This document shows, piece by piece, positions 3,187-40,431 of a stretch of 64,000 nucleotides of DNA. The stretch is from Sclerodactyla briareus (lineage: Eukaryota > Echinodermata > Holothuroidea > Dendrochirotida > Sclerodactylidae), in contig JAODTK010005617.1 in the NCBI GenBank assembly GCA_026419785.1, positions 202,711 through 266,710 of the forward strand, written 5' to 3'. Below the pieces are notes generated by a model that worked only from the letters and a program-made list of their open reading frames with translations, made no database searches and was not told where the DNA came from. The stretch's first letter is position 1. Every line of letters starts with the position of its first letter. Made by a program: the position numbers and the translations under genes.

Positions 3187-4000
3187 GGGCTCATACCTTG
3201 GTAAGTAGGTTGACAATAATAAGTAGATAATCGCTATTGTTTCGAGGTCTGGTCCAAGGTCACCTAAGGTCAACAGAGGTCAAAGTCTGGAAACCTTTTG
3301 AACACATTTAACTGCTCAACGAGTCAACGAGAAGACACGGAGGTCATACTTGGTAAGTAGGTTGACCATAATAAGTAGATAATCGCTATTGTTTCGAGGT
3401 CTGGTCCAAGGTCACCTAAGGTCAACAGAGGTCGAAGGTCTGGAAACCTTTTGAACACATTAACTGCTCAACGAGAAGACGCGGAGGTCATACTTGGTAA
3501 GTAGGTTGACCATAATAAGTAGATAATCGCTATTGTTTCGAGGTCTGGTCCAAGGTCACCTAAGGTCAACAGAGGTCGAAGGTCTGGAAACCTTTTGAAC
3601 ACATTTAACTGCTCAACGAGAAGACACGGAGGTCATACTGGCTGGCTGGCCATAGGGATTAGATGACCCCTGTTGCTTTTGGGTTGGCTCAAAAGTCACC
3701 TGAGGTCAGCAGAGGTTGAAGTATAAAATCCTTGTAAACACGGAGAGATGTAGAATGCTCTTACTTGGTATGTGGGTTGACCATTATCCCCATTGGTTTT
3801 GGTTCTGGTGGAAGGTCACCTGAGGTCAACAGAGGTCAAAATCTGAAATCCATGTGAACATAACTGTTCAACGACTAGATGTAGAGGACTCATATTGCGT
3901 ACGTAGGTTGGCCATATGGATTAGATATCCCTGTTGTTTTGGGTCAGGTCACCTAAGGTCAACAAAGGCCAGATTCTGAAATCTTGCAAACAGTGCTCCC
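3187..4000 (+). repeat. tandem repeat, 125-152-bp unit, with AGGTCA half-sites
   Basis: Six units begin with CTTGGTAAGTAGGTTGA-like sequence near 3197, 3349, 3493, 3639, 3764 and 3894. The first three are nearly identical and the last three diverged. Each carries three AGGTCA-type hexamers spaced exactly 10 bp apart (3257, 3267 and 3277 in unit one). Diverged relatives occur at 10622-11280, 25080-25200 and 47320-48560, so this is an interspersed family that has amplified locally. The G-rich run at 3122-3139 lies just upstream. Confidence 0.9.
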
Positions 4001-8235: not shown

Positions 8236-8239
8236 ATAT

Positions 8240-9060
8240 ATCCCCACAACACTTTTAAGTGTTCGGGGATGTTATGGTTCTGGGATGTAGCCGCCGTCTT
8301 CGCCGCCGCCGGGAAGTTAAGCGTTAGCGCATAAACTCTTAACGCTTCGTCCGATTGATCTGAAACTTGGTACATATGCCCTGGTGAAATCTCGGATGAG
8401 TTCGAGAGTGGGCATAACTGCATCTGCTGCCCTCTATTTTGCAAGTCAACACGAAAATACACAGTTCGTCTATTTACACGAAACTTGGGTGGGTACAAAA
8501 AGTGTCCGAAAAACATGACGGTGATTTCAAGGTCATAGAGGTAAATTTGTGGTTTTTTTCCCCTTTTTTCTGGGGGGGGGGGGGGGGGGGGGGGGGGGAG
8601 GGAGCGAAAACACGAAGTTATTCCAATTTACACGAAACTTGGTCAGTGGGGACAAAAGTTGGTCTCGAAAAACATGACGGTGATTTCAAGGTTAACACAA
8701 GGTGAAATTTACGTTTTTTTTTTGGTTTTTTTTTTACGTGATTTTCTATTGTTGTCGCGGATTGAACGAAACTCGGTAGACCTGAATTGTTGTCTGTCCT
8801 AAACAACATGAAGGGTCATTTCAGGTTCACAGGAGGTCAAACTGGCGTGATTCATGCGATTTTCTTTAGCTTGTCGTATTGAACGAAACTTGGGGAAATG
8901 ATGGACTGTACATGTTGGTACTGAACGACCAGCCAGGGCATTCAAAGTCACCGGAGTCACCGGATGGACGTCTTTAATGTGATTTCTCTTAAAACAAGAT
9001 CCACAAAGGCCATTCTGCGGGGATATACACGTCGGCGGTTCACCCGCCTGCACATGTCCA
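8240..9060 (-). mobile_element. hairpin-ended tandem-repeat element, third copy
   Basis: In minus orientation this ends in a GCC/GGC-rich stretch (8285-8312) and a hairpin with arms ATCCCC...GGGGAT (8240-8270), exactly as at 33900-33992 and 38640-38754 on the plus strand. The conserved neighbour GAAACTTGGTACATATG (8368-8384) matches those copies. Interior to this are degenerate units beginning ACGAAACTTGG near 8471, 8629, 8766 and 8883 (spacings 158 down to 117), interrupted by a 27-base G run at 8572-8598. No ORF of its own, so non-autonomous. Confidence 0.75.
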
Positions 9061-9164
9061 CTTGCTTATAGTATATTCTGTATGCGTCAAATCACGGGCC
9101 CGGAGGCCAGTGTCCTTCTACCTGCCACGAACATCAGTGAAACCTTGCAGTCTATGCAGTCATG

Positions 9165-30300: not shown

Positions 30301-31769
30301 TCATGAGTTGGGACGGTGTAGCTGAGCAATCATTTTAAATCACTAGAAAAACAAACAACGAAACTAGGTCACTCTTGACGAAAAACAAAAATCTGGGGGT
30401 ATTCTGAGCAAGTTAATTCATTTGTCGTCATCATTTTATTTAATGATTCGTGACGATTTCAGCATTTTATGATCCGAATCCGTCCTATATATTCCCACTT
30501 CAAGGAGGTCAAAATGGCAGGCTTATGGTTTACCCCCTTGGAAGAGGTGAACCACAGAATTCATGGGTACCTTAGCTTCACTGGAGAAACGTTTGTATGA
30601 GTTCTCATTGATCAGCGAATTACGGTAATTATCTCATACCACTACCGTCCCGAATAAAACGCACCCTGTATTTCTGTGTGAACCCTGTTTAATAGAGGGC
30701 ATAATCATAAACCATTATGAAACTAGAAAGTGTCGGGCGGGTAAACCGCAGGACGTATAAGCCCCGCATCTCTTATTCAAGAACTTTGGTGAACATGCAA
30801 CCGGACAATATTCGTAGAAAGAAGAACCTTTATAGACTTGTGAAGCGCAAACGTGTAACAGGTAATGGGTCATTCCTGAATTGAAACAGAAGGGGTCAAC
30901 CTATGACATGGAATATTTCAGGCCAAAATCAGTTTTTCATACATTTGCTCAATCAATTTTCTACTCAAGAAGGACTTTCGTGTGTGTGAGTCTTCAAATT
31001 TCTAATGATCAGACAGTACTATTTTGCATTGAAAATATTATATACAACATCCACCGTGTCTCCTAAATTGGATAATAGCAGGGTTTCATATGTAAGGGGA
31101 CACCAAAGTATTAAAAATTAATCAACCCCACACATGCGTTTTTTAATTTGTTTTATGATGGTCCAATTTCTGAAAGGGATATTAAACAAATTCTTCAATT
31201 TAATGGTATTTCGGTTTTGGCCATAAGACGCATATTTTTCCTGGTTTTATATGTAACGGAGAGTGGGACCCCCAAGTGATTTTTTTGCTCGATTTCGGAA
31301 ATAGAGTTAGTTACCAAATCTGTGTGGTGTTTCTAATTAAATCATGACTACGATATAATTTTCCGGAAACATTCTAAACAAAATCTTTGTAAGGAGTGTT
31401 AAAGTTTGTGGACTTCGAATTTTAAAAAAAGTCAATTTACATTTGACTTTGGTGCTCAAACACGTTGCCATCATTTGTATTGTCAAATGGTCTCCGGAAA
31501 TTGAGAATAACACAGGAAAGTTACCCTTTTTCCTGTTCAGTTTACAAACTATACAAAGGGATTCTCTGTAAGCCATTTGGGGGGAGACCAAAATTTACAT
31601 AGTGACAATAATTCTTGGATCATAATTTTGTGATGCCAATTAACTTGGTTTTATTACCTACTTTGGGAGAGCTGGGGACGTTTACTTCAGGTCAATTAAA
31701 TACCGCAATAGAGATACAGCAAAAGAGATAAAAAGTACTGTCCATAGAACTCAAGATTTTTCAATTTAC
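27379..31769. other. no confident gene
   Basis: Only short open frames without motifs. TCCCATAATGC (29661-29671) followed by GCGCCATTTTGC (29681-29692) resembles a ZNF143-type site next to a YY1-type site and could be a weak promoter. At 31080-31300 two copies of TTTCATATGTAAGGGGA / TTTATATGTAACGGAGA suggest a degraded repeat. Confidence 0.35.
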
Positions 31770-32740
31770 TTGTCAATTGGATGACGCACCCCATACCCAG
31801 GACAGGGTGAGTCATTGTCCAAAGGTGGTCATGTAATTATTGGTCCATTTACACCCCCCTCATTACTTACATGTCTTACCAATCCTTGAAAAGACCCCAC
31901 CAGTAGGCAGCTTGTCTATTATTTTCTACATAATAAACAAAAGACGCACCCAGAGTCAGTTTTGTGTACTGTACTATTTATGTAAAGTGTCCAATGTTGA
32001 GTCCTTTTGAATTTGACGATACCCACATTTGACACGCCTGTCCCCGGGTCATTGGGGGTGCTTGCGTCTTACAGTTGACTAGTGCATAAAGGGGTGCACA
32101 ATTTTACCGAGTGGCATTCTGAGAAATAATCCTATATTGATAGGACAGAAATGTATTCCCACTCTGATAAACGGAATGGACTAATGTGAAAAACGACATA
32201 ATTTACTGAATATGGAATCAACAATAGGCTATAATGCACTTGTTAATTGTATGATGCACCCCTACAACAGCCCTTGGGTTGCGTCTTCCAGTTGACAAGT
32301 GCATAAAGGGGTGCACAAATTTACCGAGTAGAATTCTGAGAAATATCTGATATTGATAGGAGAACAGAATTAATATTCCACTCTGATGAAACCGGAAAGT
32401 TACTAATGGTGAAAACGACATAGTACACTGAATATGGAATCAACATAGCCTATAATGCACTGGTTAATTAATTAAGCACCCCACAGCCCCCTTGGGGGGC
32501 GTCTTAACAATTGACAAGTGATAAATGGGGACAAATTTACCAAGTAGCATTCGGGGAAATATCCTGATTATGTGATGGACAGAAATTGATCTTCCATCTG
32601 ATGAACAGGAATGTGACTAATGGTGAAAAACTTATGGTACAATAGTTTACTAAATGTGGAATAACAATAGCCTAAATGCACTTTGTTACTTGTATGAGGC
32701 ACCCCCTACAGCCCCGGACAAGGGGCGTCTGTTAAAATAA
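31770..32740 (+). repeat. tandem repeat, ~220-bp unit
   Basis: Units share GCACTTGTTAATTGTATGATGCACCCC (near 32235, 32457, 32677) and TTGACAAGTGCATAAAGGGGTGCACA (near 32068, 32291, 32508), giving a period of about 220 bp. A partial leading unit begins at about 31780 (TGTCAATTGGATGACGCACCCC). Most differences between units are single-base gaps. Confidence 0.85.
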
Positions 32741-32749
32741 GCACATTTT

Positions 32750-33992
32750 ATTCCAAGATTCGACCATTAACAACCCACTGCCCACCGACAGAGGTCAATT
32801 CCAGGTCAGATGTCACACACATGCAGGTCAACAATTATATCACAAGGTGACCATCCAGCCTTCGCGATATTCAATTCTCCGATTATAGCCCGAAAACAGT
32901 TTTTGAACCCCTAAGTGACCTCGATGACCTTTAATGATATAACATTTTTATGAATTGTTACTCTCCTTGTGATACATCCACTCTCTGATTCATTTTGCAT
33001 TCTGAGTAACACACCCAGTGCTATTGCCGAAAAGGGACTAAAATCAGTTTTTACCCCTAAGTTAACTTTAATTACCTTCATGGACAGGGCGATTTTTTAT
33101 AACATTTTAAACTCCATGTATGCATCCATTTTCTAGAAGCATAATAACTGCATCCAATGGAACATGTCCCCTGTTTATTGCGAAAAAAAAAAAGTCTAAA
33201 CTCATCATTTTGACCTGATCAGGACAACTAATAGCAAATTAGTCCACAAATTTGGCCCTCCAGTGATCTTGATGTCTATTGAATAATTTCATCAGGACTG
33301 GTAGTAGTCCTCTTCACAAATTTTCGGTCAAAATCCCGAGAAGTTGAGAAACAATTGCATTAAGTATTTTAATCATGCTTAAACGAATATGTATTAAACA
33401 CACATAATGACCTCATTGCTTTTCAACGCAATTGAATAGATTTATCGGTACTGTTAGAAGGCCCTAACTCACCAAGTTTCGTGAATAATCCAAGAAAGTT
33501 TATCAATTTGCCTACTTGCTAATTGGACCACCTATTATGCAAATTAGTCATGCAAGATGACCTCAGTGACCTCGGCCACACAAGTGGTCATAAAATCCAA
33601 TTGAAGTGTGAAATATCACATACATTATGCTATAATTAGGCTACTGGCCAAGAACTGCAAACTTGACTCGGATGACCTTGAAATTGTCGCCATGTTTTTC
33701 TGCTTCCAACAACTCCCCCACAACCACCACTTTTCGTGAATCGCACGAACTTGAAAATTTTGCGGAAACCTGCAAAATAGAGGGCAAGCAATTACGTAAT
33801 AGCCCATTTTCGAACGTATCCGAGTTTTACACTCAACGGACATGTGTACCAAGTTGGGTCAAATCGGATAAAGTGGTTAACGAATGCGAGCGCTAGCGCC
33901 TAAAGTTCCGGCGTCCGGCGGCGGCGGAGACGCCGGGCACACGGTCAAAACCATAATATCCCCCGAACATTTATCTCAGTGTTGGCGGGTAT
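32750..33992 (+). mobile_element. hairpin-ended tandem-repeat element, copy with one unit
   Basis: Contains one ~600-bp unit (ACCATCCAGCCTTCGC at 32849), then a tail with GTTTCGTGAATAATCCAAG, GACCTTGAAATTGTCGCCATG and ACATGTGTACCAAGTTGGGT. A GGCGGCGGC-rich stretch (33909-33937) and the hairpin 33958-33992 follow. The order and tail match 35640-38754. There is no ORF, so it is non-autonomous. The plan (central tandem repeats plus terminal palindrome) resembles Helentron-associated elements; that class assignment is inference. Confidence 0.75.
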
Positions 33993-35639
33993 AATGATAC
34001 TTTTAATCTCTTGTGCAACTCCCCTCTTGACATTTTCATTCATGCAATCTTCACTCCAAGGATACTCCCTAGGCTTCTTGTCGTCTCCCGGTAACCACGG
34101 ACAGGGGGATGTGACACGATTTATCTCCATCCTGATTGACAATCACATGATGACGACCGACAAATTCTCAACAACCAATATTCAACCTCCAATCAACATC
34201 TCATTTCTTATGGTGGTACTGTTATTATCCGCTTCATTCAACTGAATCAACTCATTGCCTGTTCGACGTCATTTTATCACACTGCATTGTTTACTATATA
34301 GTCCAACGCTCAACCAGTTGCCGCTACATTCTAGGCTCCGCTTGTCGTTCAGCTACATCTCCACGCACGTGAGTGTCCTGATAACCGGCTCAGCTTGTGA
34401 CTCAATCTCATACGACAGCTACATGACCTTCACGACACTCGATGGAGTTAACTCAACTCCGGCATTTGTCCTGTCATCTCGGCAACAAACCCCATCAGCC
34501 TTTTCGCAACGTTTGCCGATTCGTATAACGGACTCTCCCTACGAATTCGAACGTATGCCTCACTATTCGTACGGAAATATTACCCCTGTACTGTGCTGGC
34601 AGGTTGCAGAGTACAAGGCTTAGCACATCTATTATCCCCGCCGCTGGTCACTCAAGTGCATACACTGGATTAGGTCTAGGCCTATCTCAGGATAGGTGGT
34701 TTCAACAACCTGCAAAAAGAAGAGTGATCTAGCCACTATCCTAGAATCAGAAATTTGCGTATTCTTTTCTTTGCAAGCAAGAATCATGGACTGACGATCT
34801 GAATCCTCTATTCTCTAACCCCTGCCTAACTGGCTATCTCCATAGTTTAGATGGGAAACCAGCTACACTGCGACGAGAAAGGTTTTGCAGATTGACTAGA
34901 AATAACCTATGGGAAACCCCTGGGCTTGCATGGGCTCTCTGCCCGTTGTAGCATATAATTTAGAAAGTGAAAAAGGAGAGTTGTCTGGCCCATAAGTTGT
35001 TTTCCCTCCTTTCCTTCCTTTTTCCTCCCTTCCAATTTTTATTCACTGGAGAGCTTGGGCTGCATGCCCTGCCTTCTTCTCCTCAGTGCCCTTGACTCAG
35101 TTTCGAATGATGCAAGATCAATATTTTCCATCACTATCGTCTACTGCTCTTCTTCACTAATTCAGTTCTTGACATAAGCGTACGAGGGCAGGGCATATGC
35201 CCCCGAATCATTTTAGTTGATCAAAATTTGGGGTGCCCGCGGCCCGTAGCGCCACCACTGATTTGATATTATGTTTGAAAAACTACTTGACTCTCAATGG
35301 CGACTTGGTAAATAACGATCTAAAGGGAGGGGTCCAATTTTTCACCTCACCCTCGGTACTCGCCCCCACGCGTCTATAACTATTTTTCATTAACTAATTT
35401 ATTTCACATTTTCTCTCAATGTCCACATTATTTTTAAACTAAGCTCCCACGCCATATTGCTGGGTGACTCATTTGTGAGCATGCAAGTCCATCTATCGTA
35501 TTCATCGCTATCTATCTAGTCTGTCAATAGTTGATTCAAATTTGCTAAGGTCCTCCTGCAGTGTGTGGTCGATCATGAAAAACTATTCCAATGATCCGTG
35601 AGCCGGAAGAGGCCTTCTGTGGTTTTTCACAGGAATTTT
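33993..35639. other. no confident feature
   Basis: Open frames 33979-34245 and 34255-34623 are unrecognised. At 35190-35257 GGGCAGGGCATATGCCCCCG...GGCCCGTAGCGCCACCACTG resembles the terminal region of an old DNA transposon without a visible partner end. Confidence 0.4.
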
Positions 35640-38600
35640 AGTCAAAGGTCATCTAGGGGTCATTTTGGCGAAAAGGTTTCCTTGCAGTTCAGAGGTCACA
35701 CCATGCCATGAGGCACACACAGAGGTCACACACATCAGGTCAACATTTAGATCACAATGGTGAACCATCCCGCCTTCGCAGCATATTCAATTCTCCGATT
35801 TTAACCAAAAACAAACGTTTTTGACCCCTAAGTGGCCTCGAATGAAAACCTTTAATGATGAATTTTTTATGAAAATTGTTAACTCTCTCTATGTGATAAT
35901 CCCACTCCTAGGACATTTTTGCATTCTGATAACACACCCAGTGCTATTGCCGAAAAAGACTAAAATCAGTTTTTGACCCCAAGTGACTTCAATGACCTTC
36001 AGTGACATGGTGGTTTTTTATGAAAATTGTACACTCCATGTGATGCAGCACCACTCCCTAGAAGCATATTGCATTTCCAATGAACATGATCCAATGTTAT
36101 TGCGAAAAGGTATCAAATGACTTTGACCCTTGTAACTACCAAAGTAAGTGTCCGGACGAAGCGGGAGTTGTTTTCTCCTCTCCATAAAGCACACGACGCT
36201 CTATCACATATCCGAAAATAACCAGTTTTCTTTTTTTTTTTGGTCCTGGAAACTTCCTTAAATAAGCACATTTATTCAAGATTCGACCTTTAAACACAGG
36301 ACCACCCCGACAGAGGTCAAATTCAGGTCAGAGGTCACACACTGCCGGTCAACAATTAATAATCCAAATGTGAACCATCCAGCCTTCGCAGATATTCAAT
36401 TCTCCGATTATAGCCCGAAAACAGTTTTTTTACCCCTAAGTGACCTCGATGACCTTTAATGAATGACATTTTTTTATGAAATTGTTAACTCTCTATGTGA
36501 TACTTCCTCTCCTAGGAGCATTTGGCATCCTGATGAAGCACACCCAGTGCTATTGCCGGAAAGTACTAAAAGTCGAGTTTTTTGACCCCTAGTGACTCTT
36601 CAATGACCTTCATTGACAGTGTTTTTTATGAAAAGTTTTACACTCCATTGATGCACCCACTCCTATAGCATCTTGGCATCCCATACATGTCCATGTTTAT
36701 TGCGAAAAAGGTATAAAAATTAACTTTGACGCCTTGTAACTCCCAAAGTCAGTGTCCGATCGAAGCGGGGAGTTGTTTTCCCTCCATAAAGCACACAAAT
36801 CTCCTTATCACAATCCGAAATAACCAGTTTCTTATTTTTTTTGCCTGTAACTCCTTAAATAAGGCACATTTATTCAAGAATTCGACCTTTAACCACACAA
36901 CATGACCCCCGGACGAGGGTCAATTCGGTCAGAGGTCACACACATGGCAAAGGTCACAATTATACATCATGGTGAACCATCAGCCTTCGCAGATATTCAA
37001 TTCTCCGATGAAAGCCAAAAACCTTTTTTGACCCCTAAGTGACCGCGAATGACTTTTTAATGAAATTGTTACTCTCCAAGGTGTCACCCACTCCTAGGAG
37101 CATTTTTGCCAATTCTGATGAACACACCCAGTGCTATTTGCCGAAAAAGTACTAAAATCAGTTTTTTACCTTAAGTGGACCTTTAATGAACCTTCAATGA
37201 CATGGCGGTTTTTTGAAATTGGTACATTCCATGTTGATGCATTCACTCCTAGAAGCCATATTGCATTCCAATGAACATGCCAATATTATCAAAAAGCTAT
37301 TAAATGAAGCTTTGACCCCTTGTAAACTACCAAAGTAAGTGTCCTCGACGCAAGCGTGAGTTTGTTTCCTCCATAAGCACACAAAGCTCATCAACATATA
37401 CAAAAAATACCAGTTTCTACTTTTTTGCCCGTAATTCCTTGAATAAGCACATTTTTCAAAGATTCGAACCCAAACCACATGACGGCATCGCAACCCGACA
37501 GAGGTCAAATCATGTCATAGTCACAACCCATGCAGGTCAACCTATATCACAATGGTGACCATCCAGCCTTCGCGGATATTCATCAATTCTCCTATTATAG
37601 CCCAAAAAACAGTTATTGACCTAAGCGCCCCGAATTGACCTTTAATGATATGACAGTTTTTTAATGAGAAATGTTACTCTCCTTGTGATACAACCATCCA
37701 CTCCTAGGGGCTTTTGCATTCTGATGAACCCACCCAGTGCTCATTGCTGACAAAGTACCAGAATCAGTTTTTTACCCCTAATTGACCTTCAAGACCTTCA
37801 ATGACATGGCGGCTCTTATAAAAATTGTTACACTCCTGTGATGGCATCCCCTCTAGAAGCATAATTGCATTCCCATACCATGTCCAATTTTATTGCGAAA
37901 AAAGTATTAAACTCACTGATCAGACAACTAATATGCAGATTAGTCCCCACATATTTAAACCCTCATGATCTTGATTGCTATTGAATAAATTCATCAATTG
38001 ACGGGTAGTAGGTCCTATTCACAAGTTTCGTCAAAATCGCCTAAAATTTGAGAAAATAATTGCATTACTATCCTAATTATGCAAACGAATATGTAAATTA
38101 AACACACTAATGACCTTCAGTGATTCAACGCAATTGAAGAAAATTTATCGGGACTGTTAGAAGGTCCTAGCACCAGTTTTCGTGAGATCCAACAAAGTTT
38201 ATAAATTTGCCTACCATATGCTAATTGGGCCACTATTATGCAAATATCCAATGAAAGATGACCTCCAGTTACCCTCGGCCACTTTAGGAAAATTCACATC
38301 GCACTGATAGTTGGCCTCTATTCACCAAGTTGCATGAAAATCCAATGAAGTTTGAAAGATCACATTCATTATGCTATAATTAGGTTACTGGCCAAAGAAA
38401 TGCAAACTTGACCTCGATGACCTTGAAATTGTCGCCATGTTTTTCGGCTCCAACACTACCACAACCACAACATTTTCGTGTAAACGCTATCGAACGGTGG
38501 AAAAATTGTTGCAAAACCTGCAAAAATAGCGGGGCAACAAATATGCGATAGTAGCCCATTTTCGAACTTATCCGAGAATTTAACTCATACGGACATGTGT

Positions 38601-38754
38601 ACCAAGTTTTGGGTCAATCGAGTTAAGGTGTTAAAGATTGAGAGCGCAACGCCTAAAAGTTTCCGGCGCGGCGGCGGTGGAGACGGCGGCGGCGGAGACG
38701 CGGGCACACGGCCAAACCATAATATCCCCGAACCTTACAGTGTAGGTCGGGGAT
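35640..38754 (+). mobile_element. hairpin-ended tandem-repeat element, copy with four units
   Basis: ACCATCC(A/C)GCCTTCGC marks units at 35764, 36374, 36976 and 37558 (spacings 610, 602 and 582). Each unit has two half-units of about 170 bp sharing GACCCCTAAGTGACCT, a GACAT run before TTTTTTATGAAAATTGTTA, and CACTCCTAG. From 37900 the single-copy tail matches 33210-33992. It passes through GACCTTGAAATTGTCGCCATG, ACATGTGTACCAAG and a GGCGGCGGCGGAGACG stretch (about 38662-38702) to the hairpin 38724-38754 (ATCCCCGAACCTT...AGGTCGGGGAT). No ORF is retained. Confidence 0.85.
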
Positions 38755-38877
38755 AAATAACAGTCACTGCGAACTCCACTCAGCTGTGATGAGGAATAAC
38801 AATATATATAGCCTATATTAGACCCGAAGCAATTCAGGGTTGCAGCTTAATGCGATTACCCGACTGTTGGTTCTTAT
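38755..38877. other. short spacer
   Basis: AT-rich sequence between the hairpin-ended element and the palindrome array; nothing further seen. Confidence 0.4.
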
Positions 38878-39060
38878 TTTCTCATTCGTGGTAACGTATT
38901 TTTTTTCCGTACGAATACCAACCACGTTTTCCCCTATTCTTACGGATTTTTCCGTACGAATACCGTCCACCGCTCTCCTTATTCGTACGGTATTTTTTCC
39001 GTACGAATACACCTACGTTTTTCTTATTTGGTACGGATTTTTTTTTCCGTACCGAATAGC
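38878..39060. repeat. tandem array of four short palindromes
   Basis: Four copies of TATTCGTACGGA-T(n)-TCCGTACGAATA, each able to form a stem with a T-rich loop. The right arms CCGTACGAATAC start at 38907, 38952, 38999 and 39047, spaced 45, 47 and 48 bp. Spacers share ACC(A/T)(A/C)C(A/G)C(G/C)TTTT-like sequence. The fourth copy carries compensating extra bases in both arms (TTGGTACGGA / TCCGTACCGAA). Confidence 0.9.
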
Positions 39061-40431
39061 CACCACCTTTCGCAAATAGCCTCTCGCATCATTGTGGTCC
39101 AGCTCATGGGGCAAAGTATGCAATCTATTGAAGGCCAAATAGAATTCAGGCAGATAAAATTGATTTTCTTGCAAAATTTAATTTTAGTCACATTTTTACC
39201 AATGAAGATGTGAAAAATTATCTGGGACAACAAATAAATTTTGAGAGAATAATGCAACAGACAATAGAAGATATTTAAATTTTCCAATACATGCTGACCC
39301 AAAACTGCCCCCTGGAGTATCCCAGAATGCATCGAAACTACCCACATTACACAGCAACATGCTATTTGCTAAAAGGCCTATCACTTCCTCGCCCCTGCTA
39401 GCACACTAGCACGGTATTAGCACTTAGCAGTCCGCACCATGATTGGCTCGTTACCTCACAGCCTTCACAGGATCAATTCTACGCCAACTATTCGGGAGCT
39501 CGTCTTCGTTTCTCCACTTTTCTCCAGTGACTACGCTTCCATCATGTACTGAACTGTCTATACTCCACAGCCTAGGCCTCGCAACTCGACAACATTATTT
39601 GCCAGTGTAGTGTGGACGACCCCACCAAACACTACGCATAGCAGAAACGCCTCAGTGACGTCACCCCATGATCACAACACAGGACACCTTCTCGGGCCCA
39701 GGCTACCTGATGATTGGGCATCAGTCCCCATTGTGCTTTCCCGCCCGTAATCACGTAAGGTTTCAACAACCGCCGTATGGAATCCGCTTCCCTACGAAGA
39801 TTACTACTCCTCCGAGCTAATATTGGATCTTTACAATCGGATCTCTATACTCATTGATTTACGAGACTGGATTACGCTCATCTACAAGCGAATCCACCCA
39901 TCGATCGACTCTGTGACGGAGCCTACTACACTGTGAGCACATACATGCGTATTCACCACTCCGGCTGTCAGAGGGACCTAGCCTGCAACCGCAGTGTCCC
40001 CGAACTTCGATCGGCGGAGGGGGGCAACCCGATTCCCTGTGTTTGTGACGACGGGCGGTGAGTGCTAATGTATGTACCACATTATAGTATAATGTAAACT
40101 CAAATTCACCACACCAGCCTTTCCCTACGATGCCTCATCTTCCGTACGACCTACGTGACTGACCCCCAGACCAATCTTTATCTAGAAATGTATTTCTGCA
40201 CTCCCACCATGCATTTGTGTATATCTTCTACCTTACAAGCCCCATTGGTCCTCCGTGTGTTTTCCTCCTCTTATCTTTGCCGACTCTGACGTCATCACCG
40301 TACAACTGCACATCACAAGCCATCCAAAACAGTAAGATCATCGCCTCCTCAGAATACCACAGATCCGAGAACAAATGTAAGGATACTCATTAGCAGCATG
40401 GGTTTTGCTGGCCATATCAACATGTTGCAAT
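39061..40431. other. no gene; dispersed repeat fragment and possible LTR
   Basis: 39300-39370 repeats the first block of the 21290 family (AAAACTGCCCC, CAACATGCTATTTGC). The stretch upstream of the primer-binding site at 40433 should hold the 5' LTR, ending near TGTTGCA (40420-40427), but I could not fix its left end or find a second copy. Confidence 0.4.

Follow-up and report, generated by a model that had tools for sequence, protein, structure and literature searches.

The 64,000-nucleotide stretch of the Sclerodactyla briareus genome analysed here (the window; contig JAODTK010005617.1) carries three copies, A, B and C, of a repeat family that is very probably made up of non-autonomous Helentrons, that is, HINEs of the DINE-1-like type. 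The family is a new example of the known HINE/DINE-1-like elements with satellite-like arrays, as described for Cg_HINE of the oyster, and no new kind of element; it is numerous and scattered across the 319 Mb genome. Searches were run against the whole assembly (3171 contigs); the copies fetched from it are the best-matching ones and no random sample, and genome copy counts are lower bounds. Part of copy B, used as a query, returned 3149 first-look candidates, the best 40 of which were scored and yielded 79 matches. The 381-bp hairpin-bearing (5') end returned 2042 first-look candidates and 41 matches from the best 40, and the opposite (3') end 854 candidates and 40 matches from the best 40. 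Because 40 scored candidates gave 41 matches to the 381-bp end, the weakest with an E value of 1.5e-21, the family defined by this end is not a product of chance. A second terminus was common to the long copies at the fetched loci, and models of the 5' and 3' ends, seeded with sequences similar to those counted afterwards, listed 15 copies having both ends, 664–3275 bp in length. Another subfamily accounts for two of these 15, copy C and L014, and the 3' termini of L013 and L004 are imperfect.

The ends are sharp. We aligned 40 5' ends (matches under E 1e-6) and 22 3' ends (under 1e-4) with enough flanking sequence, counting identical rows once. Outside the aligned ends the information is close to zero, except for a T/A preference beside the insertion point, and the consensus layout (a slash marking the point of insertion) is T/TATATCCCCGCAACACTGTAAGTGTTCGGGGATATTATGG...(GCC)n...units...GCGGGGATATATACGTCTGGCGGTTTACCCGCCCGACATTTTCTAGT/T, with the element beginning in TATATCC and terminating in CTAGT. 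For HINEs, subterminal inverted repeats (subTIRs) of at least 11 bp are expected at both ends, and the consensus has them: the 3' subTIR, GCGGGGATATA, is the reverse complement of the 5' subTIR, TATATCCCCGC, at 11 of 11 positions. In the consensus of the 40 5' ends the subTIR is followed by an inverted partner, AGTGTTCGGGGATATTATGG, and then by the GCC tract, the arrangement of the DINE-1 type. The 3' subTIR lies 36 nt inside the terminus and is hence subterminal; beyond it, 14 nt from the end, the consensus of the 22 3' ends has a palindrome with a 5-bp stem, GGCGGTTTACCCGCC.

As judged from these alignments, the prominent hairpin of the window copies is the 5' subTIR paired with its inverted partner, and the GGC tract corresponds to the simple sequence that comes next. 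Since the order subTIR, partner, GCC tract, units, 3' subTIR and palindrome is the published HINE/DINE-1 order, the minus strand carries copies A and B and the plus strand copy C. A preliminary description of this stretch had taken the hairpin for a 3' terminal palindrome, had oriented copies A and B along the plus strand, which the published HINE convention reverses, and had overlooked the real 3' end of copy A near 30722, where the subTIR GCGGGGATATA, the palindrome GGCGGTTTACCCGCC and the terminus CTAGT are found. The polarity of such elements is easy to misread because the conspicuous hairpin and the GC-rich tract mark the 5' end. The features of the three copies are as follows.

30722..33993, minus strand: copy A, a complete HINE with one ~600-bp unit and a 217-bp array (5' and 3' end models, alignment to other copies)
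33993 and 30722, minus strand: 5' end and 3' end of copy A, respectively (end models)
33951..33993, minus strand: 5' subTIR and inverted partner of copy A, a degraded hairpin (end model, DNA fold)
33910..33938, minus strand: GCC-rich tract of copy A, directly inside the 5' hairpin (sequence)
32735..33187, minus strand: sole ~600-bp-type unit of copy A, homologous part ~450 bp (self-comparison, alignment, unit recount)
32064..32629, minus strand: second tandem array of copy A, 217-bp unit, 2.6 copies (TRF)
30722..30876, minus strand: 3' module of copy A, with the 3' subTIR and palindrome inside 30722-30771 (end models, alignment)
35720..38756, minus strand: copy B, with a 5' end and four units but lacking a recognisable 3' end (self-comparison, end models)
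38714..38756, minus strand: 5' hairpin of copy B (DNA fold, -10.1 kcal/mol, z -3.6)
8237..9065, plus strand: copy C, a related-subfamily member having both ends; its internal repeats measure ~153 bp and its 3' boundary is accurate to ±3 bp (end models)
8237..8277, plus strand: 5' subTIR and inverted partner of copy C (end model; DNA fold, -9.2 kcal/mol, z -3.9)
9015..9063, plus strand: 3' subTIR and palindrome of copy C (end model, E 2.7e-11, copy C being among the model's seeds)

Self-comparison of the window bore out what the preliminary description had said of its two main copies, namely that they contain one and four ~600-bp units and share the same tail, GGC tract and hairpin. Positions 32736-33994 match 37442-38756 at 75% over 1380 columns, and the unit at 32735-33187 is seen again near 35720, 36260, 36857 and 37442, at a spacing of about 600 bp. 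Copy A thus has one unit and copy B four, the first of the four being incomplete, and in plus-strand reading the GGC tract and hairpin come after the units in both. Other boundaries had to be redrawn. The span 32750-38754, treated earlier as one family stretch, does hold two real copies but merges elements that lie ~1.7 kb of other sequence apart; this intervening sequence (33991-35714) has no match in the other fetched loci at E 1e-6. For the left copy, the unit and tail were rightly seen, but copy A continues to 30722 and includes the 217-bp array; besides this array it has about 1.2 kb of extra sequence, part of which is common to L004. The third, inverted end copy proposed at 8240-8425 is a genuine relative (8446-8256 against 33768-33973, inverted, 73%, E 3e-16) but in fact belongs to a full element of the other subfamily, copy C. 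Copy A has no long open reading frame (ORF): in a coding check limited to this copy and to ORF length, its own longest entirely internal ORF measured 86 aa, in keeping with the lack of coding capacity expected of HINEs. No Pfam match at 0.01 was obtained for 10 window ORFs and no Rfam match for the window, and neither end had an exact match in viral_contigs.

The flanks revealed a marked target preference. Across the 40 5' ends, a T precedes TATATCC in 34, an A stands before that in 36 and a T occupies position -4 in 31, and on the 3' side a T follows CTAGT in 19 of 22. The resulting preference, T-N-A-T/T, is narrower than the TT preference described in the HINE and Cg_HINE papers (PMC4067079, PMC7492417). 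Flank counts alone cannot assign the T to the element or to the target. For 12 of the 15 copies listed (all but L004, L013 and L014), the two flanks were joined and compared with the genome, giving 173 candidates, of which the best 40 were scored. For the L032 junction there were 15 paralogous empty sites spanning the join (79-86% identity), and for the L002 junction one (80% identity); all 16 were fetched and aligned. A typical L032 empty site reads CATCTGTAAT/TTTGAATG, as compared to the filled CATCTGTAAT/element/TTGAAATG, and the two bases at the join of the L032 empty sites are T/T in 12 of 15, C/T in two and T/G in one. According to these alignments, the element inserted between Ts in the sites tested, and the target appears without duplication. 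Empty and filled sites are about one T apart in the length of the T run, which could be explained by noise or by a last element T that derives from the target.

Consistent with the empty sites, target-site duplications (TSDs) did not exceed background: in 14 copies (the same 12 plus L014 and L054; L004 and L013 excluded), the mean longest word shared by the two flanks was 3.07, as compared to 3.12 for 182 mismatched flank pairs, and the longest individual case, a 6-letter word in a T run at L037, stayed below the control maximum of 7. The T-rich or TT insertion without TSD that characterises HINEs was thus found, both at the empty sites of two among the 12 insertions tested and in the TSD test of 14 copies, and the same two results support the Helentron-associated class that the preliminary description had suggested. 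The T-T insertion without target duplication that it had proposed as a check was seen at the paralogous empty sites of L032 and L002, and TSDs combined with a 5' inverted repeat, which it had named as the mark of a cut-and-paste family, did not appear. A cut-and-paste MITE (miniature inverted-repeat transposable element) or foldback element with terminal inverted repeats is accordingly extremely unlikely: the TSD signal is no higher than in mismatched pairs, the 3' subTIR is set back 36 nt from the end instead of forming a terminal repeat, and the empty sites are without duplication, whereas one inverted arrangement, in C2808, would be of the expected kind. At this locus (L011 and L052, C2808:720-3371), two inverted 5' parts accompany one 3' module in a foldback-like manner. 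It was also considered as a nested insertion or empty site, but the longer stretch is an inverted duplication with missing parts and was excluded from use.

We regard a non-autonomous canonical Helitron, which has a 5' TC and a 3' CTRR and inserts between A and T, as very unlikely as well. Such an element would share the lack of target duplication and a palindrome 14 nt from the 3' end, and an A precedes the 5' end in 3 of 14 copies; however, the termini are TATATCC and CTAGT instead of TC and CTRR, subTIRs are present at both ends, and the preference is for T-T.

Several observations weigh against the assignment to HINEs. For 10 of the 12 insertions, only the element's own halves were among the best 40 scored matches and no empty site was obtained, and the single L002 empty site is noisy at the join, though consistent. 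Folding of the 5' ends as single-stranded DNA gave strong hairpins for copies C (z -3.9) and B (z -3.6), but that of copy A is not unusually stable (-4.6 kcal/mol, z -1.1, equalled by 27 of 200 shuffles), and the 3' palindromes, which were folded for copy C (z -0.3) and copy A (z 0.2), are likewise unexceptional. Finally, no coding element with the family's ends was found in L042, L043 or L054-L056, the loci around the Rep and helicase matches described below, although the noisy assembly may miss one.

Besides their ends, the copies have a modular layout in common. Alignment by blast of copy A to the listed copies delineated a constant 5' module, a stretch recurring at ~595 bp and a 155-bp 3' module, and this layout is common to the 13 main-family copies; L015 is without the main 155-bp 3' module, and the 3' module of L019 was detected by the end model only. 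When units were recounted with a 454-bp unit as query (matches of at least 200 columns), 7 of the 13 main-family both-end copies had one unit, 4 had three, and L007 and L005 had two, L005 with fragments of a third; L008 has at least four within its fetched stretch. These counts bear on the idea that the family is dispersed satellite DNA, with short arrays flanked by chance repeats, to which we give next to no probability. Tandem units of ~595 bp in variable number are what such DNA would show, but in the copies examined the units stand between the same 5' and 3' modules, 7 of the 13 copies have a single unit, and the ends are sharp; because the copies were selected for their resemblance to the element, free arrays may have escaped notice.

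A tree of 53 units was star-like, with mean distances of 0.143 for the 26 pairs within copies (A and B of the window being treated as one copy), 0.158 at the same position (242 pairs) and 0.156 at different positions (362 pairs). It gives no indication of how the arrays grow. The filter applied for the tree (more than 380 of 454 model positions) dropped units and lowers the counts, for example to one for L003 and L006. Thirteen of the 53 units differ from the unit consensus by no more than 5% substitutions, and the transition/transversion ratio against this consensus is 0.58 in copies with more than 8% substitutions and 0.92 in the remainder, which suggests that part of the mismatch among the window copies is assembly error, although misalignment may bias the ratio. 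Dating by divergence was tried and given up: the window copies are 20-25% apart, yet the low ratio and the many indels of the noisy copies hint at assembly error. Because many copies show seemingly random assembly error, their age can hardly be read from identity.

Individual loci display composite structures. In L015:1499-2934, a main-family 5' end is fused to the 3' end of copy C's subfamily; this chimera would fit read-through to a neighbouring terminator, and recombination is equally possible. L022 (C2876:349394-352732) is a head-to-tail partial repeat, in which ~258 bp of 5' flank stand before two 5' ends at 83.6% identity; the first of the two elements stops short within its second unit. 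At about 1868-1879 of L014 (C2438), two elements meet 5' end to 5' end with a short AT-rich stretch in common.

The related Rep/helicase element with the same hairpin that the preliminary description had anticipated was sought, and only Rep and helicase fragments without matching ends came to light. The Helitron Rep domain PF14214 gave 4 scored candidates and 3 matches in two places of the assembly, and the PIF1 helicase PF05970 gave 3 scored candidates and 1 match.

C2413:103101-103575: Rep-domain fragment L042 (PF14214)
C2926:127103-127219: Rep-domain fragment L043 (PF14214)
C3088:175649-175900: PIF1-helicase fragment L054 (PF05970), with two internal stop codons

The C2413 fragment reads RGSPHAH and has the serine that PMC4067079 gives as diagnostic of Helentrons. 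Leaving aside a separate, additional HINE at L054:7722-8744, the best end scores in L042, L043 and L054-L056 were 7.0 and 5.0 bits, as compared to 9.4 and 6.3 for the best of 20 shuffles. A 7.0-bit match upstream of the C3088 helicase and on the same strand was rejected as an end: it lacks a preceding subTIR and a GCC tract, and 1 of 20 shuffles scored higher. Ten ORFs near this helicase had no Pfam match at 0.01; a loose rescan of four of them gave, for one downstream of the helicase, matches to SCAN (E 0.01) and Exo_endo_phos (E 0.19) that fell short of the respective cut-offs. That C3088 holds a Helentron would be a guess from order and look.

For the HINE family as defined above, we propose that a Helentron Rep/helicase supplied in trans would recognise the ends, displace one strand and halt at the 3' palindrome, whereupon the displaced single strand would be joined into a T-T site in a rolling-circle type of movement; the unit number could shift afterwards via slippage or unequal recombination. 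We consider it rather unlikely that these numerous HINEs, whose low-error copies differ little and which prefer T-N-A-T/T, are driven by an autonomous partner that is very rare, diverged or recently lost, or by another source of Rep, in a genome where the two domain searches yielded only fragments of Helitron/Helentron genes. If so, L015-like chimeras would bear witness to replication past the 3' terminator as far as the end of a neighbour.

The published accounts place the family close to known systems. In HINEs and Helentrons (Thomas, Vadnagara and Pritham 2014, PMC4067079), the 5' subTIR is likewise at or near the terminus; in the mite it lies 2-4 nt inside and the 3' subTIR about 38-60 nt from the end, and the HINE palindrome lies about 8-35 nt from the 3' end, values to which the about 36 nt and 14 nt found here are comparable. 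T-rich or TT insertion without target modification, the absence of a long ORF and tandem repeats in some copies are shared too, whereas sequence and unit size differ and the 5' subTIR here begins at the terminus itself. DINE-1/INE-1 of Drosophila (PMC4067079) likewise has a 5' subTIR whose inverted partner lies close by, a microsatellite, central repeats, and a 3' subTIR with stem loop; compared to it, the present family has a GCC-rich simple-sequence tract, long ~595-bp units and, in copy A, two array types. Cg_HINE of the Pacific oyster (PMC7492417) also carries satellite-like arrays between HINE modules, with subTIR, inverted repeat and microsatellite on the left and subTIR and palindrome on the right, prefers TT, lacks TSDs and in some elements has two arrays; its sequence differs, and its tract-to-array distance is 10-500 bp as against roughly 0.7 kb here. 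Nothing in these data overturns established knowledge. They add one more genome in which satellite-like arrays travel within Helentron-type elements and document, for one such family, both sharp ends and empty sites; the T-N-A-T/T preference and the chimeric 3' end offer small testable details on the choice of Helentron ends. Elsewhere in the window, further tandem arrays occupy 38894-39070 and 3191-3639, with units of 45 bp and 144 bp, respectively.
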